A stretch of DNA of 32,584 bases from Betaproteobacteria bacterium (GTDB lineage: Bacteria; Pseudomonadota; Gammaproteobacteria; Burkholderiales; Burkholderiaceae_C): NCBI GenBank assembly GCA_025360705.1, contig JANYBQ010000345.1, forward strand, positions 1 to 32,584, given 5' to 3'. This document shows positions 2,195 through 32,584 of this stretch, in pieces. Position numbers and translations under genes: made by a program. The notes beneath the pieces are model-generated. The model saw only the letters and a list, made by a program, of their open reading frames with translations, was not told the DNA's origin and did not search any database. Numbering within the stretch: position 1 is the first letter of the stretch; the number at the start of each line of letters is the position of its first letter.

Positions 2195-3406
2195 GTGGCT
2201 ACTACCCGCACTGAACTTCTTGAGATCATTCGCAACGGCGAAAACTCCGGCGTCGAATTCAATCGCGATGCGATTCAGAACCTTGCCCTGGCCAAGGAGC
2301 TTGTGGCGTTCTCCAATTTCGAGGGTGGGATGGTGCTGTTGGGTGTGGAGGATGATGGCAGCGTCAGCGGCATTACGCGACCGGACCCCGAGATGTTCGT
2401 CATGAACTCCTGCCGCGACAAGATACGGCCTGGTCTGATTCCGTTCTATGAGCGCGTCAAGGATGTTGAACCCGGCAGGGACGTTGTGGTTGTGCGCGTT
2501 TCACGCGGGCTGGATGTTCATACGCTCTGGCATGACAACAAGAATGTTTACTTCATCCGCGTTGGAACGCAAAGCCGCGAGCCGACGCCGAAGGAACTCG
2601 GCCGGTTGTTCCGGCAGCGGGGAGGTTTTCGGGCTGAGTTGCGTCCCGTATCCGGTGCGACATTCGCCGACCTGGACCTGCGCCGGCTGAAGAACTATTT
2701 CGCCCGCGTCAGACAGCAGGATGTGCCGGCCGACGATGATGAAGCCGCCTGGGCAACCCTGCTATTCAACACGGAGATCATGGTCGAAGACGGCATTACC
2801 GTTTCAGGCATTCTTTTGTTCGGCCGCACGCCGAATCGTTTTCTGCCGCAAGCAGGTATCGACGCTGTTGCATACCCTGGCGTGGACAAGGAATATGCGG
2901 CGCGTGAACGGAGCGCACTTCGCGGGCCGATAACGCCTCTTCTGAACGATGCCGGCGAGATTGTCGAAGCCGGCCTGGTGGAGCAGGCCCTCGCCTTCGT
3001 CAACAGAAACATCGCCATCATCAACCAACTGGAAGTGGGCGGTGCGCGCCGCGAAGAAATTCCAGCTTATCCACGGGAGGCAGTCCGCGAGGCGATCGTG
3101 AACGCGCTCGTACATCGGGACTATCTGCTGTCGAGCACGGACATCGAGCTTTCGATTTACGAAGACCGCATGGAGATCGTTTCACCCGGTCGCTTGCCGA
3201 ATGGTATTACGCCGGTGCGGATGTTGACCGGCTGCCGTGCGGCACGAAACCAACTCATCAAGGATGTAATGCGTGACTATCGTTACCTTGAGCATTCCGG
3301 CATGGGTGTTCCGCGCAAGATCGTCAAGTCCATGAAGGAACACAATGGCACCGCACCCATGCTGATCGAGGAAGGAGAGCGATTCACGATGCGACTCGTT
3401 CGATAA
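2195..3406 (+). CDS. AlbA_2-domain ATP-binding protein (putative transcriptional regulator)
   Basis: This 403-residue protein has the layout of the COG2865 family. An N-terminal AlbA_2/Schlafen-like domain (about 5-125) carries GVEFNRDA, then FSNFEGGMVLLGVEDDGSV and a conserved YFIRVGTQSREPT. A linker domain follows. The C-terminal GHKL-like ATPase domain (about 285-400) has REAIVNALVHRDY, with the Asn-containing N-box, then a beta-strand EDRMEIVSPGRLPNG and the HSGMGVPR glycine segment. Members are thought to bind nucleic acid and ATP and are often encoded in defence or mobile regions. The start is GTG at 2195; no in-frame ATG precedes the conserved N-terminus. The shine-dalgarno is weak. 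It may be co-transcribed with the three genes upstream. Confidence 0.85.
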   Translation: MATTRTELLEIIRNGENSGVEFNRDAIQNLALAKELVAFSNFEGGMVLLGVEDDGSVSGITRPDPEMFVMNSCRDKIRPGLIPFYERVKDVEPGRDVVVVRVSRGLDVHTLWHDNKNVYFIRVGTQSREPTPKELGRLFRQRGGFRAELRPVSGATFADLDLRRLKNYFARVRQQDVPADDDEAAWATLLFNTEIMVEDGITVSGILLFGRTPNRFLPQAGIDAVAYPGVDKEYAARERSALRGPITPLLNDAGEIVEAGLVEQALAFVNRNIAIINQLEVGGARREEIPAYPREAVREAIVNALVHRDYLLSSTDIELSIYEDRMEIVSPGRLPNGITPVRMLTGCRAARNQLIKDVMRDYRYLEHSGMGVPRKIVKSMKEHNGTAPMLIEEGERFTMRLVR

Positions 3407-3720: not shown

Positions 3721-4399
3721 CATGCCCTATCGCTTTGATCGAATTGAACCCCGCAAGACCGCGATGATCGTGGTCGACATGGAAAACGATTTCGTTGCCG
3801 AGGGTGCCAAGTTGCAGTCTAAACAGGCGCATGCCATGGTGCCCAAGCTCGCCGCCACCTTGCAGTTCTGCCGGGACCGTGGGATTCGCGTCATCTACAC
3901 CACGCACGTGCATCGCAAGGACGGCTGCGATATGGGCCTGTACGACGACCTGTATCCACCGATTGCCGACCGTTCTTCGCTGAGCGATGGCTCGCCCGGA
4001 GTTGAGATCTACCCCGATCTCGCCCCGGCGCCCGGCGAGCACGTCATCAAGAAGCATCGCTACAGCGCCTTTTTCGCGACCGACATGGACATGATCCTTC
4101 GCGAATGGGGCATCACGTCGGTGGTGATATCCGGGACGACGACCGAGAACTGCTGCCACGCCACTGCGCGCGATGCCATGTTCCACAACTACAAAGTGGC
4201 GTTTCTCTCGGATGTGACCGGAACGTTCGACTATCCCGACGTCGGATGGGGAGCGATGAGTGCGGCTGAAGTGCACAAGGCCACCCTCACGATCCTCGCG
4301 TTCTCGACCGCCCACGTGATGACGGTGGACGAGTTCCGCGCCCTGGCTGGCGGCAAGGTGGAGCAGTCGGTGCAGTCGCAGCAGGCAGTGGCGGCCTGA
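3721..4399 (+). CDS. Isochorismatase-family cysteine hydrolase
   Basis: The 226-residue product has the full catalytic triad of the isochorismatase-like hydrolases: Asp19 in MIVVDMENDF, Lys111 in IKKHRYSAF and Cys144 in TTTENCCHATARDA, preceded by the usual cis-peptide-type GTTTEN loop. It is cytoplasmic, with no signal peptide. The family includes ureidoacrylate amidohydrolase (RutB), biuret hydrolase and N-carbamoylsarcosine amidase, which all cleave ureido or amide bonds. The nearby ureide pathway makes such an activity plausible, but the substrate cannot be read from the sequence. The start is ATG 3721 because GGAGA lies 6 bases upstream; the longer frame from 3626 lacks this support. It converges with the DUF72 gene. 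Confidence 0.85.
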
Positions 4400-4457
4400 T
4401 CCACACCACCCGACCGGGGCGCTTCGATGAATCAGGACTGCTGGCGCTAAACGGCCC

Positions 4458-5261
4458 TCACGCGAGCCGCGCAATCAACGCCTGCGCCGCTGCCGGTGCG
4501 CGCTCTTTGGCGCCGTTGATGAAGAACACGAAGACGTCGCGGGCCTTGGCCGCTTTGCCTTTTGGTTCGACGCGTGGCAACTCATCAGGCGCATCGCCTT
4601 TGGCCCAGACCTGCGCGGCCGCAGCCCACTGGTCAAGTGCCTTGGGCGCATAACCAGTCTTCACTTTCTCTTCACTCTTCATCAGCCGCGTATAGACAAA
4701 GTCGCTCGTCAAATCAGCAAACGACGGAAATTTTTCGGAGTCGGTAAACACGCTGGCGCATTTGTATTTGCGGGCCAGCAACAGGTAGTCGCTCGACATG
4801 AAACTTGGGTGGCGCACGTCCAGCACATGGCGCAGTTTGCGGCCGTCCACGTCTTTGGGCAACAGGACCAGAAAGGCCTCGAAGTCTTCGGCGTCGAACT
4901 GTTTGGCGGGCATAAATTGCCAGACGATGGGGCCGAGTTTGTTGCCCAGTTCACTGATGCCGCTACCCACAAACCGCGTAATGGATTCGCCTGCGCCGGC
5001 CAGCACGCGGCGGTTGGTAGCAAAACGGTTGGCCTTGAGCGAGAACATGAAATCGTCGGGCGTCTCGTCGTGCCACTTCTTGAAGCTGGCGGGCTTCATG
5101 GTGCTGTAGTAGGTGCCGTTGACTTCGATAGCCGTGAGCTGGCGGCTCGCGTATTCAAGCTCTTTGGTCTGCGCCAGGCCTTTGGGATAAAAGTTGTTGC
5201 GCCAGGGCTCGAAGGTCCAGCCGCCGATGCCGACGCGAATCTGGGTTGTTGTCTTGGCCAC
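4458..5261 (-). CDS. DUF72 domain-containing protein
   Basis: About 267 residues with the typical start of the DUF72 (YecE-like) family: RVGIGGWTFEPWRNNFYP, then ATERN-type features such as AIEVNGTYYSTMKPASFKKW and FMFSLKANRF, and later IVWQFMPAKQFD, VLDVRHPSF and YTRLM. The fold is a TIM-barrel-like enzyme of unknown reaction. The GTG at 5261 has an excellent ribosome-binding site (GGAGGAG) six bases upstream. The TTG at 5267 would sit directly against that site, so GTG is preferred. The tail is Lys/Ala-rich (KGKAAKARDVFVFFINGAKERAP), which is normal for the family. It has no evident link to purine breakdown. Confidence 0.85.
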   Translation of the reverse strand: MAKTTTQIRVGIGGWTFEPWRNNFYPKGLAQTKELEYASRQLTAIEVNGTYYSTMKPASFKKWHDETPDDFMFSLKANRFATNRRVLAGAGESITRFVGSGISELGNKLGPIVWQFMPAKQFDAEDFEAFLVLLPKDVDGRKLRHVLDVRHPSFMSSDYLLLARKYKCASVFTDSEKFPSFADLTSDFVYTRLMKSEEKVKTGYAPKALDQWAAAAQVWAKGDAPDELPRVEPKGKAAKARDVFVFFINGAKERAPAAAQALIARLA

Positions 5262-5286
5262 TTTCAACTCCTCCGTATCGATGCCT

Positions 5287-5400
5287 GAGGTTGTGAAGAT
5301 TTCGTAGCGAGCGGGTCAAGGTGATGTCGAGGAGCGGAGCCGTACAGGTGTACGGTGGGCACCGCAGGCGCCAGATTGGCACGCGCAGTAGAAAGATTCA
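5287..5400 (+). repeat. 114-bp MITE-like intergenic repeat, copy A
   Basis: This segment matches the reverse complement of 28606-28719 over its full 114 bases with about 8 mismatches (about 93 percent, counted by eye). The element has inverted ends related to TTGTGAAT/ATTCACAA and a central palindrome CCGTACA-GG-TGTACGG. It fills the space between the DUF72 start and the M20 amidohydrolase end, and its right edge includes that gene's TGA codon. No coding potential is apparent. It could act as a transcript-end hairpin. Confidence 0.85.
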
Positions 5401-6624
5401 TAGCCTCAACAGGTCGTGCAGGCTGCGTGCAATGACCTTGGTCGCGCGACGCAGGTCTTCCAGCTCAAGCCGTTCATCAGCGCGTTTGGCGTGTGACTCC
5501 AACACCGTGCGCGGGCCCGCACCATAAATCACGCCCGGAATACCCGCCTCGCAGAACAGGCGCACGTCGGTATACAGAGGTGTGCCCAGGGCGGGAATTT
5601 TTTCGCCGAAAACCAGCTCACCGTGTTTCTGAATCGCATCCACCAGCGGCTGGTTGCCGGCCAGGGGCCGCATGGCATGGGCCAGTAGCAGGCGCTTGAT
5701 CTCGACCGTCACACCCGGCAATTTGGCGGCGGTGTCCAGAATGAGCTGGTGCAGCGTGTCTTCCACCTGCGCCGGATTCTCTTCGGGGATCATGCGGCGG
5801 TCGAGTTTGAAAGTGATGCGGCCCGGCACCACGTTGGTGTTGGTGCCGCCTTCGATCATGCCGACGTTCAGGTAAGGGTGGTTGATGCCTTCCACTTTGG
5901 AACTGATACTTTTGTACAGCGTGTTCTGCCGATACAACGCATTCAGAATTTCCACTGCGGCCTGCATCGCGTCCACGCCGGACTCGGGAATCGCGGCGTG
6001 CGCCATCTTGCCGTGCACCGTAACTTCCATTTGCAGACAGCCGTTGTGTGCCGTTATCACCTGGTAGCTGAAGCCGGCCGCGATCATAAGGTCGGGCCTG
6101 ATGATTTTGTGCTTGAGCAGCCAGGCCGGCCCGACTTCACCGCCAAACTCCTCGTCATAGGTAAACAGCAGTTCCACGCTCCCGGTCACGGGCTGGGCTA
6201 CTTCTTCCAACGCCCGTACGGCGAAGGTATAGGTGGAAAAATCGCATTTGCTCACAGCCGATGCGCGGCCATAGATCTTGCCGTCATCGATCTCGCCGCC
6301 GTACGGATTCTTCGTCCAACCCTCTCCCGGCGGAACCACGTCGCCATGCGCATTGAGCAGGATGGTCTTGCCGCTGCCGTATTTGCGCCGCACCACCAGA
6401 TTGGTGATCGTCTCCAGGCCGCAGGCGCGTACTTCGTCCTCCGGCACCGGGTATTTTTCCGCTTCCATTCCCATTGCCTTGAGCAGTTCGGCGGTGCGCT
6501 CCGCATGCGGCGCGTTGTTGCCGGGCGGCGTGTCGGTGGGAACGCGGATCAGTTCCTGCAGGAACTTGACCTGTTGGTCGAAATGTTCGTCGATCCAGGT
6601 GTCGAGTCGTTCGTAAGTTGTCAT
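5398..6624 (-). CDS. M20-family metallo-amidohydrolase (ArgE/DapE/AllC superfamily)
   Basis: The 408-residue protein carries the M20 di-zinc motifs: LLNAHGDVVPPGEGW (His and bridging Asp), LLFTYDEEFGGEVGP (catalytic Glu followed by a metal Glu), a lid/dimerisation domain beginning HGKMAHAAIPESGVDAM and RRMIPEENP, and a C-terminal His in VLESHAKRADE. It is cytosolic and likely removes an acyl, carbamoyl or formyl group from an amino-acid-like substrate. Its ATG at 6624 lies 8 bases past the natural TGA of the upstream UraD-AllC frame, so it is the last gene of the allantoin operon. By context it may act on a ureide intermediate such as ureidoglycolate, or on a carbamoylated side product; acetylornithine deacetylase-like annotation would also be compatible. 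Confidence 0.8.
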   Translation of the reverse strand: MTTYERLDTWIDEHFDQQVKFLQELIRVPTDTPPGNNAPHAERTAELLKAMGMEAEKYPVPEDEVRACGLETITNLVVRRKYGSGKTILLNAHGDVVPPGEGWTKNPYGGEIDDGKIYGRASAVSKCDFSTYTFAVRALEEVAQPVTGSVELLFTYDEEFGGEVGPAWLLKHKIIRPDLMIAAGFSYQVITAHNGCLQMEVTVHGKMAHAAIPESGVDAMQAAVEILNALYRQNTLYKSISSKVEGINHPYLNVGMIEGGTNTNVVPGRITFKLDRRMIPEENPAQVEDTLHQLILDTAAKLPGVTVEIKRLLLAHAMRPLAGNQPLVDAIQKHGELVFGEKIPALGTPLYTDVRLFCEAGIPGVIYGAGPRTVLESHAKRADERLELEDLRRATKVIARSLHDLLRL

Positions 6625-6710
6625 GGGATATTTCAGGTTTCTTGGGCCATCTGGCCAAGCAGGGACAGGAAGGCATCGACGGCCAGTTGCATGTCGTCGC
6701 TGTTGGTGGA

Positions 6711-8405
6711 CTAGAGCGGGTTGTGGCTGATGCCGGCGTTTTGTCCACGCACGAACAACATTGCCTGCGGCATGATTTGGTGCAGTTTCATCGCGTCGTG
6801 ACCGGCACCGCTGGGCATGCGGTGCAGCGGCACGCCAAGTGCGTCGACGGCGCGTTCCCAACGCGCCTGCCACTCGGGCGCGCTGGGAGCCGCCGAGGCC
6901 CGTACGTTTTCTTCGAGCGTGTAGTGCATATGGCGGCGTTCGCAGACTTCCGCCAAGCTGGCCAGGATGTCGTGCACCAGCGCGTCGCGTTGTGGGTCGG
7001 TGGGGGCCCGCATGTCCAGCGTGAACTGGCATCGCCCGGGCACCACGTTGACCGAGCCGTTGGGCACGGTCAATTGACCGACTGTCGCCACCGAGTCGCC
7101 GTCCTGCGCGGCGCGTTTTTCGGCGGCCAGGATGACCTCGGCAACCGCCGCGGCGGCATCGCTGCGCCGGTTCATCGGTGTGGTGCCGGCATGGCAGGCG
7201 GTGCCGATGACATCGACCGAATAACGGGCGCTGCCGTTGATCGACGTCACGACACCCAGCGGCAGATTCATCTCGCCCAGCACCGGGCCCTGCTCGATGT
7301 GAACTTCGACAAAACCGAGATAGTTTGCTGGATCGCGCTTTAATTTGGGGATGTCGTCGGTGTGCAGTCCCGCGTGTTCCATGGCCTCGCGCATGGTGAT
7401 ACCGTCGGCATCTTTTTGCGCCAGCCATTCAAGGTTGAAGTCGCCCACCAGGGCGCCCGAGCCGAGCAGGGTGGCCCTGTAACGCTGGCCTTCCTCTTCG
7501 GCAAAACCCACCACTTCCAGGTTGAAGGGAAGACGTTTTCCGGTGCGTTTGAGTTCCCGCACGCAGGCCATTGGCACGAAGATGCCGAGCCTGCCATCGT
7601 ATTTTCCGGCGTTGCGAACGGTGTCGTAATGGCTGCCGGTCAGCAGCGTGGGTGCGCCGGCTCTATCGGCGCGGTAGATACCGACCACATTGCCTACTGC
7701 GTCGATGGCCGCTTCATCGAGGCCGCACTCCGACATACGCGACTGGATGCGTGCTGCGCAGCTTCGGTGCGCGTCGGTCAGATAGGTTACCGTCAGCTGG
7801 CCCTTTTCGGCATAACCGGGATCGGTAAAAGCGCTGAGGTGTTCCTGCCAATCCCAGACATCGTTGCCGAGTGCCGGCTGCGTATCGAACTTGTCGTTGA
7901 GCCGGATTTCCACGATACGGTGGATGTTGCGCAGGCTTTCCTGCAACTCGAAGTTCGGATGGTTCAACAGCCGCCGTTCGAACGTCTCCAGAATTTCCCT
8001 TTTGGGCAGGCCCAGCCCGCGCGGCCCGCGCACCGCCAGGATGAAGGGGAAGCCGAATTTGGCAGCATAGGCCGCGTTCAAGCGCGTGATGTGTTGCAGC
8101 TCTTCGGCGCTGCATTGTGTCAGCCCGGCCTGGTTCTGCTCGTTGCTTGATTCCGACGTCAGCGTGCTGGAGGCCATGGCCTTGCCGGCCAATTCCGGAT
8201 GGGCGCGGATCAGGGCCAATTGCGCGTCGCGGCCGGCTTTGCCAACTACCTGCGCCATGCAATATTTGAGCTGCGCGAGTGAGCGAAATGGACGCTGGGT
8301 GAGCGCCTGTTCTGCGATCCAGGGCGAATGTTCATACAGACCCGCCAGCATGCGCTGCGCCTCCTGCGGCGGAGCCTGGTTGAGTTGTTGCAGCGTGAGG
8401 GCCAT
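6711..8405 (-). CDS. uraD: Bifunctional OHCU decarboxylase (UraD) / allantoate amidohydrolase (AllC) fusion, interrupted by an amber codon near the 3' end
   Basis: Residues 1-170 are UraD: the catalytic His69 lies in RAHPELAGKA, followed by SSNEQNQAGL, the conserved helix NAAYAAKFGFPF and FILAVRG. This domain decarboxylates OHCU to S-allantoin. Residues 180-564 are an M20-type allantoate amidohydrolase: GSHYDTV (His259), GKYDG (Asp270), GFAEEEGQRY, VEVHIEQGPVL, CHAGTTPM and the final metal His in GISHNPL. The frame is then cut by TAG at 6713-6711, where homologues have Glu. Beyond it the same frame continues for 25 more family-like residues (STNSDDMQLAVDAF and so on) to TGA at 6635-6633. All metal ligands precede the stop, but the last helix is lost unless the codon is read through. 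The gene starts 3 bases after puuE. The AllC part could be inactive or unstable. Confidence 0.9.
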   Translation of the reverse strand: MALTLQQLNQAPPQEAQRMLAGLYEHSPWIAEQALTQRPFRSLAQLKYCMAQVVGKAGRDAQLALIRAHPELAGKAMASSTLTSESSNEQNQAGLTQCSAEELQHITRLNAAYAAKFGFPFILAVRGPRGLGLPKREILETFERRLLNHPNFELQESLRNIHRIVEIRLNDKFDTQPALGNDVWDWQEHLSAFTDPGYAEKGQLTVTYLTDAHRSCAARIQSRMSECGLDEAAIDAVGNVVGIYRADRAGAPTLLTGSHYDTVRNAGKYDGRLGIFVPMACVRELKRTGKRLPFNLEVVGFAEEEGQRYRATLLGSGALVGDFNLEWLAQKDADGITMREAMEHAGLHTDDIPKLKRDPANYLGFVEVHIEQGPVLGEMNLPLGVVTSINGSARYSVDVIGTACHAGTTPMNRRSDAAAAVAEVILAAEKRAAQDGDSVATVGQLTVPNGSVNVVPGRCQFTLDMRAPTDPQRDALVHDILASLAEVCERRHMHYTLEENVRASAAPSAPEWQARWERAVDALGVPLHRMPSGAGHDAMKLHQIMPQAMLFVRGQNAGISHNPL

Positions 8406-8408
8406 GGC

Positions 8409-9374
8409 TCAATCCCCCCTATACGGATGTGTTCGTTTCCAATGCCGCGCGATGTCCAGACGACGGCAGATCCACACCTTGTCATGCGACTGCACATAGT
8501 CGATAAATTTTTGCAGGGCTTTTATGCGCCCCGGCCGGCCCAGCAGGCGGCAATGCATACCGACCGTCAGCATCTTCGGAGCATTCACGCCCTGCGGGTC
8601 GCCCTCGGCGTACAACACGTCGAAGCTGTCCTTGAGATAAGTCAGGAAGTCATCGCCCTGCGCGAACCCCTGGGCCGACGCGAATCGCATGTCGTTGGTG
8701 TCCAGCGTATAGGGCACGATCAGTTGCGGCACCACGCTGCCATCGGTTTTGCGGACCTTCATCCAGAATGGCAAGTCGTCGCCGTAGTAGTCGCTGTCGT
8801 ATTCGAAGCCGCCATAGTCGGCCACCAGGCGTCGCGTGTTGGGACTGTCGCGCCCGGTGTACCAGCCCAGCGCGCGTTGGCCGGTAAGCTGCTCGATGAT
8901 CTGCATGCCGATACGCATGTGTTCGCGTTCCGTGGCCTCGTCGATGTTCTGGTAGTTGATCCAGCGCCAGCCGTGGCAGGCGATTTCGTGCCCCAGTTGC
9001 TTGAACGCCGCCGTCAGATCCGGGTGCCGTTGCAAGGCCATGCTGACGCCGAATATGGTCAACGGCAGTTCGCGTTGCTCGAACTCGCGCAGGATGCGCC
9101 AGACGCCCGAACGCGAGCCGTATTCGTACAGGCTTTCCATGCTTTGATGGCGCGCCGCAAATGCCGCGGGGTTGAATATCTCGGACAGGAATTGCTCCGA
9201 CGCCGGGTCCCCATGGAGTAGCGCGTTTTCGCCGCCCTCCTCGTAATTCAAGACGAACTGCAAGGCGATGCGGGCGGCGCCGGGCCATTGCGCGTGGGGA
9301 GGTTTGCGTCCGTAACCGGTCAGGTCGCGCGGGTAGGCAGCGGTGGAGTCGTAGACGCAGCGCGTAGGGGTCAT
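8409..9374 (-). CDS. puuE: Allantoinase PuuE (polysaccharide-deacetylase fold)
   Basis: This 321-residue enzyme hydrolyses allantoin to allantoate in the cytosol. It belongs to the metal-independent or weakly metal-dependent PuuE type rather than the amidohydrolase AllB type. Diagnostic segments are RDLTGYGRKPPHAQWPG, ALQFVLNYEEGGENALLHGD, RSGVWRILREFEQRELP, EIACHGWRWINYQ, GWYTGRDSPNTRRLV and the C-terminal MLTVGMHCRLLGRPGR. The length is normal for the family (about 300-325). The ATG at 9374 follows the gntR stop by 9 bases and the stop is 3 bases before uraD, so the three genes form one tight operon, presumably controlled by the regulator at its head. Confidence 0.93.
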   Translation of the reverse strand: MTPTRCVYDSTAAYPRDLTGYGRKPPHAQWPGAARIALQFVLNYEEGGENALLHGDPASEQFLSEIFNPAAFAARHQSMESLYEYGSRSGVWRILREFEQRELPLTIFGVSMALQRHPDLTAAFKQLGHEIACHGWRWINYQNIDEATEREHMRIGMQIIEQLTGQRALGWYTGRDSPNTRRLVADYGGFEYDSDYYGDDLPFWMKVRKTDGSVVPQLIVPYTLDTNDMRFASAQGFAQGDDFLTYLKDSFDVLYAEGDPQGVNAPKMLTVGMHCRLLGRPGRIKALQKFIDYVQSHDKVWICRRLDIARHWKRTHPYRGD

Positions 9375-9383
9375 GACGGGCTT

Positions 9384-10049
9384 TCAGGCCAAAGCCATAG
9401 AAATGTCGTTACTCGGAATCTTGCGATCGAAGCTCAGGTTTTCTTCCACATGCAGCAGGTGTTCGTTCATGAGCCGTATCGACAGCTTCTCGTCTCTGGC
9501 GGCGAAGGCGCGCACAAGTTCCGCGTGTTCATCATGGGAATGGGTCGCGGCACCCGTGGTCTGGTACATCAGCGTGATCAAGGCGCAACGCGAGATCAGC
9601 TGGCCCAGCAACTGCGCCAATACAGCATTGCCCATTAGTTCGGCAATACGTACATGGAAGTCGCCCAGCAGTTCGGTTCGACCGGGCGCATCCTCCAACT
9701 CGATGGCCCGCTTTTCCTGCGCGATATGCTCTTTCAGCGCCTTGATCTTCGCCGGCGTTACCTGATGCACGAAGGCGCGCGCCATCTCCGACTCCAGCAT
9801 GCGGCGCACCGCGAAAACCTGTTTTGCCTCGCTCACGGAAGGGGCCGCCACAAAGGCGCCGCGCGCGGGCTCCAGCGTGACCAGCCGGTGTTGCGACAAT
9901 TGCAGCAGGGCCTGGCGTACCAGGGTGCGCGACACGCCAAAATGATTCGCCAGCTTCTGTTCCGCCAGCTTGCTGCCTGGATGCAGCCGGTGCTCCACAA
10001 TCGCTTTGGTCAGCGCCTGGACGATCAGGTGGGTCGAGGAAGATTCCAT
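9384..10049 (-). CDS. GntR-family (FadR/FCD) transcriptional regulator of the allantoin operon
   Basis: The 221-residue protein has a winged helix-turn-helix (about 10-68; KLAEQKLANHFGVSRTLVRQALLQL is the recognition region) and a helical FCD effector domain (about 75-210). The FCD domain shows the metal-type residues DFHVRIAEL and a later HDEHAELVRAF. FCD regulators usually repress catabolic operons and respond to an organic acid or ureide. The gene heads the puuE-uraD/allC-M20 operon and faces uraH across a 71-base spacer. That spacer contains a perfect GTGTATACAC palindrome, a good match to the GntR operator type, so autoregulation and control of uraH are likely. The effector is not deducible; allantoin or allantoate are natural guesses. 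Confidence 0.9.
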   Translation of the reverse strand: MESSSTHLIVQALTKAIVEHRLHPGSKLAEQKLANHFGVSRTLVRQALLQLSQHRLVTLEPARGAFVAAPSVSEAKQVFAVRRMLESEMARAFVHQVTPAKIKALKEHIAQEKRAIELEDAPGRTELLGDFHVRIAELMGNAVLAQLLGQLISRCALITLMYQTTGAATHSHDEHAELVRAFAARDEKLSIRLMNEHLLHVEENLSFDRKIPSNDISMALA

Positions 10050-10073
10050 CGATTAATCATAGCGCGATGCCAG

Positions 10074-10091
10074 AAATGTGTATACACTTTT
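10074..10091. promoter_or_regulatory. Probable GntR/FCD operator in the gntR-uraH divergent spacer
   Basis: The bases read AAATGTGTATACACTTTT. The core GTGTATACAC (10078-10087) is a perfect 10-base palindrome and the AAA/TTT flanks extend the symmetry. FadR/FCD regulators favour sites of the GTnTACnA or TGTATACA kind. The site is 25 bases upstream of the regulator start and about 30 bases upstream of uraH, ideal for shared control. Confidence 0.6.
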
Positions 10092-10120
10092 GTTTTTTCC
10101 GCAGCCGTAAGGGGATGCCC

Positions 10121-10474
10121 ATGGGATTGAGCACACACGTACTGGACACCATGCATGGCAGCCCGGCAGCCGGAATGCCCGTGGCCCTGTACACCACGGC
10201 CGGTGACTTGGCGACCCTGGTAAAAAGTTTTGTCCTGAACCCGGATGGCCGCAACCCGGACGGTCCGTTGTACGACGCCAGCAGCCTGAAAGTGGGTACC
10301 TACCGGCTGGTGTTCGACGTTGCCGCCTACTTTCGCTCAAAGGACGTTGCGCTGCCCGAGCCCAACTTCCTGAACAAGGTCAGCGTCGACTTTGGCGTAG
10401 CCCTTGCCGATCAGCATTACCACGTGCCGCTACTCGTGAGCCCGTGGAGTTACTCGACCTATCGTGGGTCATGA
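10121..10474 (+). CDS. uraH: 5-hydroxyisourate hydrolase (transthyretin-like)
   Basis: The 117-residue protein converts 5-hydroxyisourate to OHCU, the step between PuuD and UraD. Family signatures are the N-terminal LSTHVLDTMHGSPAAGMPV (catalytic His6), the internal FDVAAYF and the C-terminal HYHVPLLVSPWSYSTYRGS, which ends in the diagnostic YRGS. The size matches bacterial UraH (about 110-125). The ATG at 10121 is chosen because AAGGGG lies about 6 bases upstream and it places the family N-terminus correctly; a second ATG two codons earlier is possible. There is no signal peptide, so the enzyme is cytosolic. It is transcribed away from gntR and probably shares its operator. Confidence 0.93.
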   Translation: MGLSTHVLDTMHGSPAAGMPVALYTTAGDLATLVKSFVLNPDGRNPDGPLYDASSLKVGTYRLVFDVAAYFRSKDVALPEPNFLNKVSVDFGVALADQHYHVPLLVSPWSYSTYRGS

Positions 10475-10490
10475 AAAAATTCGTCTCCCC

Positions 10491-11042
10491 TCAAAGCTGG
10501 CCTTCGGTCAGGGTGTCCAGTTGAAACTTGCCGCCTTTGTCCCACAGCCAGATGTCGCTATAGGTGACTTTGCCCAGGCGGCTGGGAATGGGGTAGGGCG
10601 CCGCCGCACGGACGGTGCGCACGATTTCGGCCATCACTTCCGGCGCATGGCTGGGGGCGCGGCGCCAGTTGATGGCGGTGACGTTGCCCTGGCGGTCGAT
10701 ATCCACGTCCAGTACACCGATCGCATACAGGTTGGGCTGCAACATGCCTTTGTAAATGCGCTCTGCGTTGGACGCGTACAGATGGGTGGCTGCGTCGCGG
10801 CGATAGGCTTTCGCGCTGGTGGCCGCGGAGTTGGCGGGCCGGGTGGTCGGGCGTGGCGCAGCCGCAGCAGGTGCCGGGGCAGTCGCGGGGCCGACCGCGG
10901 ATGGAGGGACCGTGTTCGGCACGGGCGCCTTTTCGCCGGGCGCGGGCGCGCCCTGGGGTGTTACGTTGCATGCCACCAGCAAGGCGGCAGCCGCGGCGCC
11001 AGTGGCGGCCAGCAAGCAATGGGTGCGGGAAAGGAAGGACAT
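10491..11042 (-). CDS. Lipoprotein with a TonB C-terminal-like domain
   Basis: About 183 residues. The N-terminus (FLSRTHCLLAATGAAAAALLVAC) is a lipoprotein signal ending in a lipobox-like LVAC. A Pro/Ala-rich spacer follows (about 28-75), then a domain with YAIGVLDVDIDRQGNVTAINWRR and EIVRTVRAAAPYPIP, the pattern of TonB-type energy transducer C-termini. It therefore looks like a periplasmic, membrane-anchored TonB-like protein, though it lacks the usual N-terminal transmembrane anchor of true TonB. It converges with uraH (16 bases apart) and diverges from xdhC. A TTG at 11054 is an alternative start. Its role with purines is unknown and it may be unrelated. Confidence 0.75.
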   Translation of the reverse strand: MSFLSRTHCLLAATGAAAAALLVACNVTPQGAPAPGEKAPVPNTVPPSAVGPATAPAPAAAAPRPTTRPANSAATSAKAYRRDAATHLYASNAERIYKGMLQPNLYAIGVLDVDIDRQGNVTAINWRRAPSHAPEVMAEIVRTVRAAAPYPIPSRLGKVTYSDIWLWDKGGKFQLDTLTEGQL

Positions 11043-11970: not shown

Positions 11971-13203
11971 ATGGAAAGTTATTACCTCGACTGGGCCAAC
12001 CTGCTGCTGCGCTGGGTCCATGTCATTACGGCCATTGCCTGGATCGGCTCTTCGTTCTACTTCGTTTTTCTTGACAGCAGCCTGGTCAAACCGGTGTCCA
12101 AGGAGTTGCAGGACCTGGGCGTCGGCGGTGAGTTGTGGGCGGTGCACGGCGGCGGCTTTTATAACCCGCAAAAGTACACGGTGGCACCCAAGGTGGTGCC
12201 CGACCATCTGCACTGGTTCTATTGGGAAAGCTACAGCACGTGGCTGAGCGGCTTCGCGTTGTTCACGGTGTCGTACCTCTGGAGCGCTGGCGCCTACCTG
12301 ATCGACAAGTCGCTGATGGACTGGTCCAGCGGCGCGGCTATCAGCGTGGCCTTGTCGTTCCTGCTGGTGTTCTGGATCGTCTACAGCCTGATCTGCCACC
12401 TCTTCGGCCAGCGCAGGAACGGCGACGGGATTGTGGGCATATTGGTTTTCATAGTCGTGTGCTTCGCGTCCTGGCTGGCCTGCCACTGGTTCGCCGGCCG
12501 CGCCGCGTTTTTGCTGGTGGGCGCCATGATCGCCACGGCGATGAGCGCCAATGTTTTCTTTTGCATCATTCCGGGCCAGCGCATCACCGTGAAAGAACTG
12601 CGTGAAGGCCGGCCGGTCGACCCGATCCATGGCCAGCGTGCCAAACAACGCAGCGTACATAACACCTATTTCACGCTGCCGGTTTTGTTCGCGATGCTCA
12701 GCAACCATTACAGCTTTACCTACACCGCCCAGCACAACTGGATCGTGCTGGTGGCCATGATGCTGGCCGGTGCACTGATCCGGCAGTTTTTTGTCACGCG
12801 TCACGGTTACAAGCTGGGCCGCAACCCTCATCCGTGGCCGTATGCGATGGTGGGCGTGGCGGTAATCGTTGGCGCGATTGTGTGGATGCAACCGTCACCG
12901 GGGGCCGTCGTCGCTTCCGGGCCTGCCTCAACTTCCGTTGCCAGCGCCAGCGGGGCTGCCGGCCCGAGCGTCAAGGAGGTGCAGAAGGTACTGGAGCAGC
13001 GCTGCACCATGTGCCATGGCCCAACGCTGCAGATGAAAGGTGTCCGCCTGGATTCGCTCGAAGGGCTCAAGCAACACGCGCAACTGGTTTACCAGCAGGC
13101 CGTGGTGACCAGGGTCATGCCGATGAATAACGCGACCGGCATTACCGATGCCGAGCGCGCGCTGATCGGGCAGTGGTTTCTGGCGGGGGCCAGTACCGAG
13201 TGA
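11971..13203 (+). CDS. puuD: Membrane urate hydroxylase PuuD with C-terminal cytochrome c domain
   Basis: This 410-residue inner-membrane protein oxidises urate to 5-hydroxyisourate. Residues 1-300 hold about eight hydrophobic helices, beginning LLLRWVHVITAIAWIGSSFYF, with conserved histidines in VVPDHLHWFYWESY and NTYF. Residues 330-410 form a cytochrome c domain with the haem motif CTMCH at 345-349 and a likely axial Met in RVMPMNN (Met383). Electrons would thus pass to a cytochrome rather than directly to oxygen, as proposed for the PuuD family. It starts at ATG 11971, just after xdhC, and ends convergent with the hydratase gene. It replaces a soluble uricase, which is absent from the window. 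Confidence 0.93.
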   Translation: MESYYLDWANLLLRWVHVITAIAWIGSSFYFVFLDSSLVKPVSKELQDLGVGGELWAVHGGGFYNPQKYTVAPKVVPDHLHWFYWESYSTWLSGFALFTVSYLWSAGAYLIDKSLMDWSSGAAISVALSFLLVFWIVYSLICHLFGQRRNGDGIVGILVFIVVCFASWLACHWFAGRAAFLLVGAMIATAMSANVFFCIIPGQRITVKELREGRPVDPIHGQRAKQRSVHNTYFTLPVLFAMLSNHYSFTYTAQHNWIVLVAMMLAGALIRQFFVTRHGYKLGRNPHPWPYAMVGVAVIVGAIVWMQPSPGAVVASGPASTSVASASGAAGPSVKEVQKVLEQRCTMCHGPTLQMKGVRLDSLEGLKQHAQLVYQQAVVTRVMPMNNATGITDAERALIGQWFLAGASTE

Positions 13204-16782: not shown

Positions 16783-18156
16783 GTGTCGGTGCAACAGGCT
16801 CCCATCAAAGCCTCGGCAAGTCCGGTCGCGCGGCGCGAACTGATTGCGCTGGCGTGCAGCATCGGCCTGATGCCGCTCAACTCCACCATGATCGCGGTCG
16901 CCATCCCGGCCATCGCCGCGGACTTGGCCGCGGCTCCGGGAGTGCTTATCCAGTGGCTGGTGACGAGTTACCTTGTTGTGGGTATCGTGGCACAAAGTCC
17001 GGCCGGAAAACTCGGGGATCGCGAGGGCTACACACGCGCCCTGGCCTTGGGCCAGGCGGTTTTCGCCTGCGGCAGCGTGCTTGGCTTCTTGGCCCATGCG
17101 CTGCCCCTTCTGGTGGCCGCACGGGTACTGATGGCCGTGGGTGGAGCGATCATCATGCCCTCCGCGATGGCGATGGTTCGGGTGCGACTGCCCGCGGAAC
17201 AACGCGCCAAGGCTTTTGGCATGTTCGGCGCCGTGATGGGCCTGTCGGCGGCTATCGGTCCCCTGATAGGAGGCGAGATCGCGTCCCGCTTCGGCTGGCC
17301 TGCGCTGTTTCTGGTGAACATCGCGCCACTGGCGCTGGCCCGGGTTTTGGGCTCGGGCAAAGGTCCTGCGCCGGACCGGGAGCCAACCCAGGCTCGCAAG
17401 GCCCGTTTCGACGTGTTGGGCAGCGTGTTGCTTGGCTTGGGCCTGGTGCTGGTTGTGATCGGAGCCCGGAGCCCGGCACTGTGGCTGCCACTGGTCGGCA
17501 CTGGCTTGGCGACCCTGTTTGCATTTGTCTGGTGGGAACGGCGCGCCACCGATCCGGTGGTCGATCTTCGGCTCTTCATGCACCGTGCCTTCACGGCGGG
17601 AACGCTGATCGTGGGGCTGCAGAATTTCGCGATGTACGCGCTGTTGTTCGAACTTCCGGTCGTGTTCTCCAGAAGCTTCGGTGCCACCTCGGCGCAGTCT
17701 GGGCGGGCGCTGCTCGCGCTGACGCTGGCCATGGTGGTGGGCTCGATGCTGGGGGGTCGAGTCGCGGGGGCGATCGGTTCGCGCAAGGGCGCCTTGCTCG
17801 GTAGCTTGGTGGCTTTCGCGGGGGGCGTGCTGCTGGCGTTACGCCCCCTGGCCGGCGTCACGGATTCACTGCCCGCGCTTCTTGTGCTGGGCTTTGGGCT
17901 CGGATTCACGACACCGGCCGCGACCGCCGCGCTGATGGCGGTCGCGCGACCGGGCGAAAGCGGGATGGCGTCCGCTGTCTCAAGCACCGTGCGTTACCTC
18001 GGGGGGATCGCGGGCGTCGCCGTGGTCAGCGCACTTGTCGCGGGCGACGATGTTCTTGCGGCGCACAGGAGCGCCGCAGTGGTCTTTGCGCTGGCGCTCG
18101 GGCTGGCCACTGCGCTGGCCACTGTCATTCCCCGTCACAAAATCCGCGGCCCATAA
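16783..18156 (+). CDS. MFS transporter, DHA2-like (EmrB/QacA type)
   Basis: About 457 residues with 12-14 hydrophobic helices. MFS motif A appears as GKLGDREGYTRAL after helix 2, the antiporter-type motif C as GAVMGLSAAIGPLIGGEI in helix 5, and a second-half repeat near LLFELPVVFSRSFG. The length and motifs fit the proton-driven drug or metabolite exporters. The start is taken at GTG 16783 (GTG 16789 is an alternative), 13 bases after the ATP-grasp gene, so it is the third gene of the phosphotransferase operon. That setting suggests export or uptake of the phosphotransferase substrate or product. No periplasmic adaptor gene is adjacent. Confidence 0.88.
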   Translation: MSVQQAPIKASASPVARRELIALACSIGLMPLNSTMIAVAIPAIAADLAAAPGVLIQWLVTSYLVVGIVAQSPAGKLGDREGYTRALALGQAVFACGSVLGFLAHALPLLVAARVLMAVGGAIIMPSAMAMVRVRLPAEQRAKAFGMFGAVMGLSAAIGPLIGGEIASRFGWPALFLVNIAPLALARVLGSGKGPAPDREPTQARKARFDVLGSVLLGLGLVLVVIGARSPALWLPLVGTGLATLFAFVWWERRATDPVVDLRLFMHRAFTAGTLIVGLQNFAMYALLFELPVVFSRSFGATSAQSGRALLALTLAMVVGSMLGGRVAGAIGSRKGALLGSLVAFAGGVLLALRPLAGVTDSLPALLVLGFGLGFTTPAATAALMAVARPGESGMASAVSSTVRYLGGIAGVAVVSALVAGDDVLAAHRSAAVVFALALGLATALATVIPRHKIRGP

Positions 18157-18208
18157 CGTACAGGTGTCGCTGTCCAGCGCGGCACAATGCCGCGAGGAGA
18201 CACTGCCC

Positions 18209-19549
18209 ATGCCCGCCACCCATACTATTCCGCGCCCCGACCTGGAACCCGGAGCTTTCCTGGAACATCTCTACAACGTCGCCGTACTGCGCGCCTTGCC
18301 GCTGCACAACACGGCGGCTTATTTGCCCGCGCCACCCGATCCCGCAAGCGGCGGCCGCACCATCGTGCTGGGCGCCGGCAAGGCGGCGGGCTCCATGGCG
18401 CAGGCAGTGGAAACGTGGTGGCCCGTCAATGCGCCGCTGCAGGGTCTGGTGGTGACGCGGTACCACCATATTCCGCCGCGTGCGCCTGATCTGAAGCAAC
18501 GCATTGAAGTGGTCGAAGCCTCGCATCCGGTGCCCGACGCCGCGGGCATGGCGGCCGCGCAACGCATCCTGGCCATGGCGCGGGGGCTGACAAAAAACGA
18601 TCTTGTGTTGTGCCTGATCTCGGGCGGCGCGTCGGCGCTGCTGACCCTTCCGACAGTCGGCCTGACGCTGGAACAAAAGCAAAACGTCAACCTGGCCTTG
18701 CTGGACAGCGGCGCCAGCATTTCCGACATGAATTGCGTGCGCAAACATCTGTCGCGGATCAAGGGTGGGCGACTGGCCGCCGCCTGTTTCCCGGCGCGCG
18801 TTGTGACGCTGGCCATCAGCGACGTGCCGGGCGACGACCCGGGCATCATCGGCAGCGGTCCGACCGTGCCCGATGTCACGACCTGCGCTGACGCTCTGGC
18901 GGTATTGCGGCGCTACCGCATAGACCTGCCGGCCGAAGTGCTCGACGCATTGCGAAAAAATGACCTCGAAACACCCAAGCCCGGCGACGCCGTATTTATG
19001 GGCCATGCAGTGCACCTGATCGCGACGCCGCAACAAAGCCTGGAAGCCGCGGCGGCCGCAGCGCGCGCGGCAGGCCTGAACGCCTACCTATTGAGCGACG
19101 CAATGGAAGGCGAGTCGCGCGAGGTGGGCAAGGTGCATGCAGCACTGGCGCGTGCCGTGGCGCTGCGCGGCCAACCCTTCACCCGTCCCTGCGTGATTCT
19201 GAGCGGCGGGGAGACCACGGTCACGATCCGGCCCCGTACGCCCGGCGCGGCGAAAGGCCGAGGCGGGCGCGCCGGCGAATTCTGCATGGGCCTGGCCCAG
19301 GCCTTGCAGGGCCAGCCGGGCGTCTACGCGCTGGCGGCGGATACCGACGGCATCGACGGTGTAGAGGACAACGCCGGCGCGCATGTGCTGCCCGACACCT
19401 TGCAGCGCGCGAACGCTTTGGGCATGAAGATCGACCAGTACCTGGACCGCAACGACGCCTACGGTTATTTCAGCGCTTTGGGCGACCTGGTCGTTACCGG
19501 ACCCACGCACACCAACGTCAACGACTTCCGGGCGATCCTGGTGTTGTAG
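18209..19549 (+). CDS. ttuD: Glycerate 2-kinase (MOFRL family)
   Basis: The 446-residue enzyme phosphorylates D-glycerate to 2-phosphoglycerate. The N-terminal DUF4147 domain has TIVLGAGKAAGSMAQAVE, VVEASHPVPDAAG, LCLISGGASALLTLP, MNCVRKHLSRIKGGRLA and ISDVPGDDPGIIGSGPTVPD. The C-terminal MOFRL domain has LSGGETTVTI, GRGGRAGEFCMGLA and AADTDGIDG. GAGGAGA lies 8 bases before ATG 18209. In purine degradation, glyoxylate from ureidoglycolate can be turned into glycerate by glyoxylate carboligase and a reductase, and this kinase closes that path. Those two enzymes are not in the window. The product is also called GckA. Confidence 0.92.
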   Translation: MPATHTIPRPDLEPGAFLEHLYNVAVLRALPLHNTAAYLPAPPDPASGGRTIVLGAGKAAGSMAQAVETWWPVNAPLQGLVVTRYHHIPPRAPDLKQRIEVVEASHPVPDAAGMAAAQRILAMARGLTKNDLVLCLISGGASALLTLPTVGLTLEQKQNVNLALLDSGASISDMNCVRKHLSRIKGGRLAAACFPARVVTLAISDVPGDDPGIIGSGPTVPDVTTCADALAVLRRYRIDLPAEVLDALRKNDLETPKPGDAVFMGHAVHLIATPQQSLEAAAAAARAAGLNAYLLSDAMEGESREVGKVHAALARAVALRGQPFTRPCVILSGGETTVTIRPRTPGAAKGRGGRAGEFCMGLAQALQGQPGVYALAADTDGIDGVEDNAGAHVLPDTLQRANALGMKIDQYLDRNDAYGYFSALGDLVVTGPTHTNVNDFRAILVL

Positions 19550-30973: not shown

Positions 30974-31142
30974 GCGCCCACCGGTAGCAGCGCCTTCAAT
31001 TGCGCAAGGTTGACTTTATGCTGACCAGCCTGGGGTGTTGTTCCGCCAACTGGCGGCGGCCTATCGCAAGGACCGCCGAATACGGCTCATCGGTTAAAAG
31101 AGCCGCGAGAACTTCCCGGCCCACCAGACCGGTTGCCCCCGC
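30970..31142 (-). pseudogene. Fossil N-terminal fragment of a Rossmann-fold NAD(P)-binding oxidoreductase
   Basis: On the minus strand this frame reads AGATGLVGREVLAALLTDEP, then YSAVLAIGRRQLAEQHPRLVS, the usual start of atypical SDR-type NAD(P)H-binding oxidoreductases (GxTGxxGxxV dinucleotide loop and a GRR motif at the second strand). After a probable one-base deletion near 31011, the next frame continues HKVNLAQLKALLPVGA before TAA at 30972-30970. No start codon and no rest of the protein are present. The first part overlaps the last codons of the helicase gene in a different frame. The fragment ends against the BMP stop codon. Confidence 0.6.
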
Positions 31143-32583
31143 CCCCAAAGCCACCCGTCCCGCCGCCGGAGCGACCGCCACCGCCATAAGAACCTCCGCT
31201 GCGGTTACCACCATATCCGCCGCCACCGCCACCGCCACCGCCACCGCGACGTTGGCCACCGCGTTCCACCATCATGTCCACACCGGTACGCATAGGATCG
31301 GGTTCGCGAGGGGCCGTATTGCGCGGCTGCACGTTGCCACCACCACGCAGCGGATCGGGCTGGCCCTGCGATGCGTGGCGTGGTTGCTGATTGCCGCCGC
31401 CCATACCACCATTGCGGTTGCCCTGGAAGTTGCCACCACCGCCGGGACCGTTACGCGCGCCATTGCCAGCGCCCTGGCCGTTGCCGCGACCGCCGCCTGA
31501 GCGTCCACCGCCACCATAGCCACCGCCGTTGCCGCCCCGGCCGCCACCCCCTCCACCGCCGGCATTGTTGCCGCGGTTGTCGCGTACGCGCTCCATCATC
31601 TCGGTACGCGCGGCCTTGGCCGCGGCCATCATCACATCGCGGCCGGGTGGTTTGCCGGCGCCGCCCCAGATGGTCTGGCGGCCCATGGCGATAGGTTCGG
31701 CGCGTTCGCCCGGCTCGGGACCGAATCCATCAACCAGCACCACTTCAATATTCTGTTTGGTGTAACGCTCGATATCCTGCATGAAGCCTTCTTCGTCCAG
31801 GCACACCAGGCTCACTGCCGCGCCATCGGCTCCCGCGCGACCGGTGCGGCCGATGCGGTGCACATAGTCTTCGCTCACATTGGGAATGTCGTAGTTGACC
31901 ACGTGCGGCAAGTCGTCGATGTCGATGCCACGCGCTGCGATGTCGGTGGCAACCAGGGCCCGTATTTCACCGCTCTTGAAGCCGCCCAGCGCCTGGGTAC
32001 GCGCACCCTGGCTCTTGTTGCCGTGCAAAGCCATGGCGTGAATGCCGTTCTTGCTCAGGAACTCGGCCACATTGTTGGCGCCGAACTTGGTGCGCGTGAA
32101 GACCAGCACCTGGCTCCAGTTGTGCTGCTGGATTATGTGCGCCAGCAGCGCCTTTTTCTTGCCGCGCCCGACCGGGTGAATCGTCTGGGTGATGCTTTGT
32201 ACGGTCGTGTTGCGCGGTGTCACCTGCACGCTCTGCGGGTCCTTGAGCAAGGTCGCCGCCAGGTCGCGTATTTCGTCGCTGAAGGTGGCCGAAAACAACA
32301 GGCTCTGCTTTTCTTTGGGTACGACCGCCAGCACTTTTTTCACGTCATGGATAAAACCCATGTCGAGCATGCGATCGGCTTCATCCAGCACCAGTATTTG
32401 CACCTGGCCCAGGTCCAGCAGGCCTTGACCCAGCAGGTCCAGAAGGCGCCCGGGCGTGGCCACCAGAATGTCGACGCCTTTCTTGACGCGGCTGATTTGC
32501 GGGCCCATGCCAACGCCACCAAAAATTACCGTGGACGTCAGTTGCAGGAATTTGCCGTAGGTCTGTACCGACTCTTCTACCTG
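31087..32583 (-). CDS. rhlE: RhlE-like DEAD-box RNA helicase with Gly/Arg-rich tail, 5' part outside the window
   Basis: The frame is open to the right edge, so the N-terminus (Q motif, motif I) is missing; about 498 residues are visible. Motif Ib TPGRLLDLLG, motif II VLDEADRMLDMGF, motif III LLFSATFS, motif IV VLVFTRTK, motif V ATDIAARGIDI and motif VI HRIGRTGRAG are all intact. The last 170 residues are a low-complexity Gly/Asn/Arg tail (RGG-like), typical of beta-proteobacterial RhlE proteins that unwind short RNA duplexes in ribosome assembly and mRNA decay. The final 16 codons overlap a fossil oxidoreductase in another frame. It converges with the second BMP gene and is unrelated to purine catabolism. 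Confidence 0.92.
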   Translation of the reverse strand, partial: QVEESVQTYGKFLQLTSTVIFGGVGMGPQISRVKKGVDILVATPGRLLDLLGQGLLDLGQVQILVLDEADRMLDMGFIHDVKKVLAVVPKEKQSLLFSATFSDEIRDLAATLLKDPQSVQVTPRNTTVQSITQTIHPVGRGKKKALLAHIIQQHNWSQVLVFTRTKFGANNVAEFLSKNGIHAMALHGNKSQGARTQALGGFKSGEIRALVATDIAARGIDIDDLPHVVNYDIPNVSEDYVHRIGRTGRAGADGAAVSLVCLDEEGFMQDIERYTKQNIEVVLVDGFGPEPGERAEPIAMGRQTIWGGAGKPPGRDVMMAAAKAARTEMMERVRDNRGNNAGGGGGGGRGGNGGGYGGGGRSGGGRGNGQGAGNGARNGPGGGGNFQGNRNGGMGGGNQQPRHASQGQPDPLRGGGNVQPRNTAPREPDPMRTGVDMMVERGGQRRGGGGGGGGGGYGGNRSGGSYGGGGRSGGGTGGFGGGGNRSGGPGSSRGSFNR

Positions 32584-32584
32584 C

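Follow-up and report, generated by a model that had tools for sequence, protein, structure and literature searches.

The uraD-allC fusion gene in the window (the whole stretch of 32,584 nucleotides analysed here) is interrupted by an in-frame TAG at a codon where its relatives encode glutamate. The stop is best read as a real and very recent single-base nonsense mutation, a reading to which we give a probability of about 0.5. The gene starts with an ATG at position 8405 of the minus strand, and the frame up to the TAG encodes 564 residues. The fusion protein displays an OHCU decarboxylase domain at residues of about 9–170 and a hydantoinase/carbamoylase-family (M20) amidase domain at about 180–589. 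Direct reading of the window bears out the positions given in a preliminary description of this DNA, i.e. TAG at 6713–6711, then 25 sense codons that translate as STNSDDMQLAVDAFLSLLGQMAQET, then TGA at 6635–6633. The same is true of the M20 gene, said there to begin 8 bases past the natural TGA; its ATG is at 6624–6622. The features are collected in Table 1.

Table 1. Coordinates of the fusion gene, its stop and the neighbouring genes in the window
Feature	Position	Strand	Remark
uraD-allC fusion gene, extent as in relatives	6633..8405	-	TAG interrupts at codon 565
In-frame TAG	6711..6713	-	Glu (GAA or GAG) here in 99/99 relatives (80 of them the best 80 of 129 loci)
Tail past TAG, 25 sense codons and natural TGA	6633..6710	-	helix predicted at residues 569–588
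M20 family hydrolase, ArgE/DapE type, open	5398..6624	-	usual downstream partner
Allantoinase PuuE, open	8409..9374	-	family match
GntR/FCD regulator, open, upstream of fusion gene	9384..10049	-	same direction
Protein with Urate_ox_N domain, open	11971..13203	+	domain match

The relatives compared number 99 and consist of 19 genomes and the best 80 of 129 loci found, with the same species possibly present in both sets. Titles among the 80 loci include Acidovorax, Variovorax, Comamonas, Delftia and Polaromonas, which we take to be Comamonadaceae. Glutamate is at the stop position in 19/19 of the genomes and in 80/80 of these best-ranked loci, as had been expected from the window alone. With the same limit to the best 80 of 129 loci, the frames of all 99 continue for 23–32 codons from this Glu (Glu counted), and the tail residues D571 and L574 are each found in 99/99. 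Orthologues that end naturally at HNPL had been named as a check on the nonsense reading; among the 99 (80 being the best 80 of 129) there are none, and a natural short form of the protein is thereby ruled out.

A wider search compared the read-through protein with 150 genomes of the family at a threshold of E ≤ 1e-150. It scored the extent of the match, and the residue at position 565 was read only for genomes that are among the 19. A match was found in 119 genomes, own genome included. Apart from the latter, 116 of 118 matches extend to residue 582 or further. The remaining two (G062 and G139) stop at residues 420 and 417 and may represent contig ends. Inner stops flagged in two genomes (a TAA in G116 and a TGA in G154) are natural ends at residue 589.

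The tail has the character of coding sequence. A scan of 381 kb, made up of the window and 20 stretches of the same genome in which a simple script called 345 genes, gives the tail a score of 0.53 bits per codon, compared with a coding mean of 0.24. This is the highest per-codon score of the eight listed continuations that score above 4 bits and are clear of other called genes. The TAG and tail in the fusion gene exceed chance expectation.

The closest family profile, NF010373 (PRK13799), is described as an “unknown domain/N-carbamoyl-L-amino acid hydrolase fusion protein” and shares its domain order with the window gene. The truncated protein aligns with profile positions 1–564 of 591 and scores 961 bits; once the gene is read through, the alignment covers positions 1–589 and the score is 989–992 bits, a gain of 28–31 bits. 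The earlier view that the tail is still an intact family C-terminus is upheld. The window gene differs from NF010373 in its stop at codon 565 and in falling below the curated equivalog cut-off of 1087 bits, which is missed in the truncated form and even when read through. The cut-offs of the OHCU decarboxylase profiles are passed (TIGR03164, 171 bits vs 96.25; PF09349, 153 vs 24). The truncated protein also passes TIGR01879, the hydantoinase/carbamoylase family amidase (M20) profile, with 304.7 bits vs a cut-off of 204. The C-terminus after the SHNP motif, i.e. the Glu and the terminal helix, is missing from the translated product and present in the DNA past the TAG. Thus the fusion gene is a member of the M20 amidase family by ancestry, and its product is an incomplete member because the TAG cuts off the Glu and the terminal helix. 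TIGR03176, the equivalog for AllC allantoate deiminase, is missed (220.7 bits vs 597.75); an allantoate role of the gene is suggested by the nearby allantoinase and urate oxidase genes together with the decarboxylase domain.

The structure model of the fusion protein has a mean pLDDT of 81 and a pTM of 0.82. Residues 557–565 are of low confidence, and residues 569–588 form a helix with a pLDDT of about 90. The 21 top-ranked solved chains (ranks 1–21) belong to the amidohydrolase/carbamoylase/beta-alanine synthase group, and their alignments all terminate at model residue 589 or 590, where the ranges denote the first and last aligned residue only. Among known structures, Escherichia coli allantoate amidohydrolase (1z2l, 2imo and 4pxd) aligns to model residues 175–590 with Z of 31–32. 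Its chains of 399–423 residues are without the decarboxylase domain and are 27–29% identical to the model. The sequence matches of 1z2l and 4pxd continue beyond the TAG as far as query residue 407 of 410. The five PDB sequences shown in alignment with the tail, including two variants of a single protein, likewise have Glu at the stop position.

The truncated protein of 564 residues might work well enough, since it is preserved as far as the SHNP motif. Such a tolerated truncation gains something from the location of the stop past this family motif and from the untouched decarboxylase domain. It is nevertheless very improbable, as Glu is found in 99/99 fusion relatives (80 being the best 80 of 129 loci) and in the five displayed PDB sequences, the 21 top-ranked chains align through to the model end, and none of these relatives ends at the stop position. 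In passages of a paper on a related enzyme (PMC10952681), the catalytic domain is described as extending to the C terminus, and a conserved His385 as taking part in substrate binding; this residue would correspond to the His of the SHNP motif. With the loss of the Glu and the last helix, the amidase domain is therefore probably unstable or inactive. The OHCU decarboxylase domain of the truncated protein may still work.

A real mutation would most simply be GAG to TAG, with T replacing G on the coding strand, and would have occurred in a single lineage or within the population sampled. Translation would then halt after SHNPL and release a 564-residue protein with the OHCU decarboxylase domain and with an amidase domain that extends as far as the SHNP motif. 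Deprived of the conserved Glu and of the terminal helix, the amidase domain would be expected to be unstable or inactive, and allantoate use would be lost or weakened. The mutation would be a recent one.

Comparison of invariant columns bears on the age of the stop. With the stop itself excluded, 0/161 columns of the fusion protein that are invariant in the other rows are altered in the window; the neighbouring genes give the same result (puuE 0/101, M20 gene 0/138). By this comparison no decay is seen elsewhere in the fusion gene, therefore the stop is either recent or not real. In the tail, a comparison of 21 codons with those of each of five congeners gives 4–7 synonymous and 5–8 replacement codon differences. 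The PuuE sequence of locus L081 has a single stop, at the fourth codon of its alignment and before the next Met, and this stop is taken to sit upstream of the true start.

The codon route is less direct than first proposed. The preliminary description explained the stop by a single GAG-to-TAG change. The glutamate codon is confirmed by 99/99 relatives (80 of them the best 80 of 129 loci), however the gene is present in five of six congeners (the sixth is without a match) and all five encode the residue as GAA. A one-step change therefore requires an ancestor with GAG, since GAA to TAG takes two changes. Such an ancestor is plausible because GAG makes up 1580 of 3425 Glu codons in the long frames of the own-genome sample.

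An isolated stop without other decay is also the typical look of a base error. The fragmented draft may carry an error here, in base calling, in the consensus or through mixing of strains, the organism itself having an intact gene; this ranks second, slightly below a real mutation in probability. The source assembly is a draft of 701 contigs and 94% complete, and the fusion gene is otherwise without decay, both of which favor an error. A scan of the genome for inner stops, to which it was specifically aimed, covered 296 matches of five domain families. None were found in ABC_tran (0/150, 150 of 283 candidates having been scored), LysR_substrate (0/32) and ACR_tran (0/11), and one each in AMP-binding (1/36) and adh_short (1/67). 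The adh_short case is an SDR gene whose frame is open except for one in-frame TAG (contig C164, 2791–2793, plus strand, in L162). The column of this TAG varies among the seven SDR domains compared from this genome, and a search of 11 other genomes at E ≤ 1e-60 yielded no relative of the gene. The AMP-binding case, of acyl-CoA ligase type, is split, apparently by a frameshift (contig C301, about 4365–5491, minus strand, in L163).

Thus the window stop is not the sole interruption in the draft, and with two further broken genes among the 296 domain matches of this 701-contig draft an error rate that yields such stops is possible. These two genes fit ordinary pseudogenes and draft errors alike, and a similar background of broken genes is expected from natural pseudogenes, a point against the error reading. 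Further against an error, nothing in the draft points directly to low quality: 294/296 domain matches are stop-free and 22 of 23 frames listed in the window are open, the fusion gene being the only one with an inner stop, although several of these frames match no family and may be non-genic. The fusion-gene region is also single copy in the assembly, therefore there is no rival strain contig. The search for a second copy or AllC-like gene in this 94% complete genome gave one weak match only (query residues 373–499, E = 5.5e-4, contig C619).

According to passages of a 2024 study (PMC11017572), low coverage or quality accounts for many of the internal stops seen in public assemblies of bacteria, which adds to the case for an error. 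The nonsense alleles and spurious stops in drafts described in these passages likewise consist of one internal stop in a gene that is otherwise intact and conserved; the present stop differs from them in being known from the assembled sequence alone. The significance of the stop is small outside this strain. It exemplifies cleanly how a lone stop can fall on an invariant codon of a draft assembly, and the reads need to be checked before the strain is counted as having lost allantoate use. If real, the nonsense mutation would capture gene loss at its first step, with the pathway's other genes in the window still open.

Translation of the TAG as an amino acid, by amber suppression or programmed readthrough, would yield the full protein. 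The persisting conservation of the tail agrees with this, as does the second gene broken by a TAG: both stops found inside otherwise open frames are TAG, although two are insufficient to show a bias. An RF1 gene is however present in the genome, and TAG terminates 49 of the 345 called genes in the 381 kb sample, fusion gene counted. A CUA anticodon is absent from the 32 tRNA genes identified, an incomplete set in which none is assigned to Trp, Cys or Ile. Among 32 same-frame followers scoring above 8, five lie behind a TAG and the other 27 behind TGA or TAA. The five TAG-ended genes stop coding at the TAG, with at most 0.08 bits per codon over the next 25 codons. A TAG-ended short frame at a contig end (L149, 14545–14889, minus strand, contig C143 of G000) has a mildly coding-like continuation, at 0.29 bits per codon across the next 25 codons, which counts in favor of suppression. 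RNA structure 3′ of the window TAG is not unusual (z = 0.03), and there is no Rfam match across window positions 5000–10500. The 99 relatives (80 being the best 80 of 129) have no stop here, therefore nothing is conserved as readthrough. Decoding of the TAG is thus highly unlikely, and a strain with an unseen amber suppressor, in which the TAGs of the fusion gene and of the C164 SDR gene are decoded at some rate, is more unlikely again.

The remaining proposal is that the downstream M20 gene compensates for a truncated fusion protein. The M20 gene has a match of 65–85% identity in the loci of 96 of the 99 relatives, and the fusion genes beside it are all without an inner stop (80 of the relatives being the best 80 of 129 loci). 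It is therefore a standing partner of intact fusion genes and not a substitute. Aligned with the AllC part, it matches at best over 109 residues, 29% of them identical (E = 5e-5). Compensation is ruled out by this remote similarity, by the ArgE/DapE-type branch to which the gene belongs and by its partnership with intact genes. Thus, among the four options of the preliminary description, a recent nonsense mutation and a base-call error are retained and are together by far the likeliest, while a truncation tolerated through the M20 paralogue and amber suppression find no support. The window stop is an ordinary event; among the readings only suppression would surprise.

The TAG increases the stop-to-start gap before the M20 gene from 8 to 86 bases. 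A gap of at least 86 bases is found in 7 of the 94 relatives measured, so a loss of translational coupling to the M20 gene is possible, if uncertain.

The region displays further genes of purine degradation. The protein with the Urate_ox_N domain is presumably a urate oxidase of the PuuD kind, and there are also two xanthine-dehydrogenase-type subunits, an adenosine deaminase and a Bmp-type transporter. Every other gene of the purine cluster that matches a family has an open frame. Allantoicase (PF03561) has no match in the genome and likewise none in 14 control genomes (0/14), so its absence is uninformative. A gene at 18035–19549 with DUF4147 and MOFRL domains adjoins the xanthine-dehydrogenase-type genes. 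We take it to be of the glycerate 2-kinase type, and it could serve glyoxylate use from allantoin. Elsewhere in the window, a gene at 2195–3406 has Schlafen AlbA_2 and HATPase_c_4 domains, and a minus-strand gene for a DEAD-box helicase at 31087–32584 is cut by the contig end.
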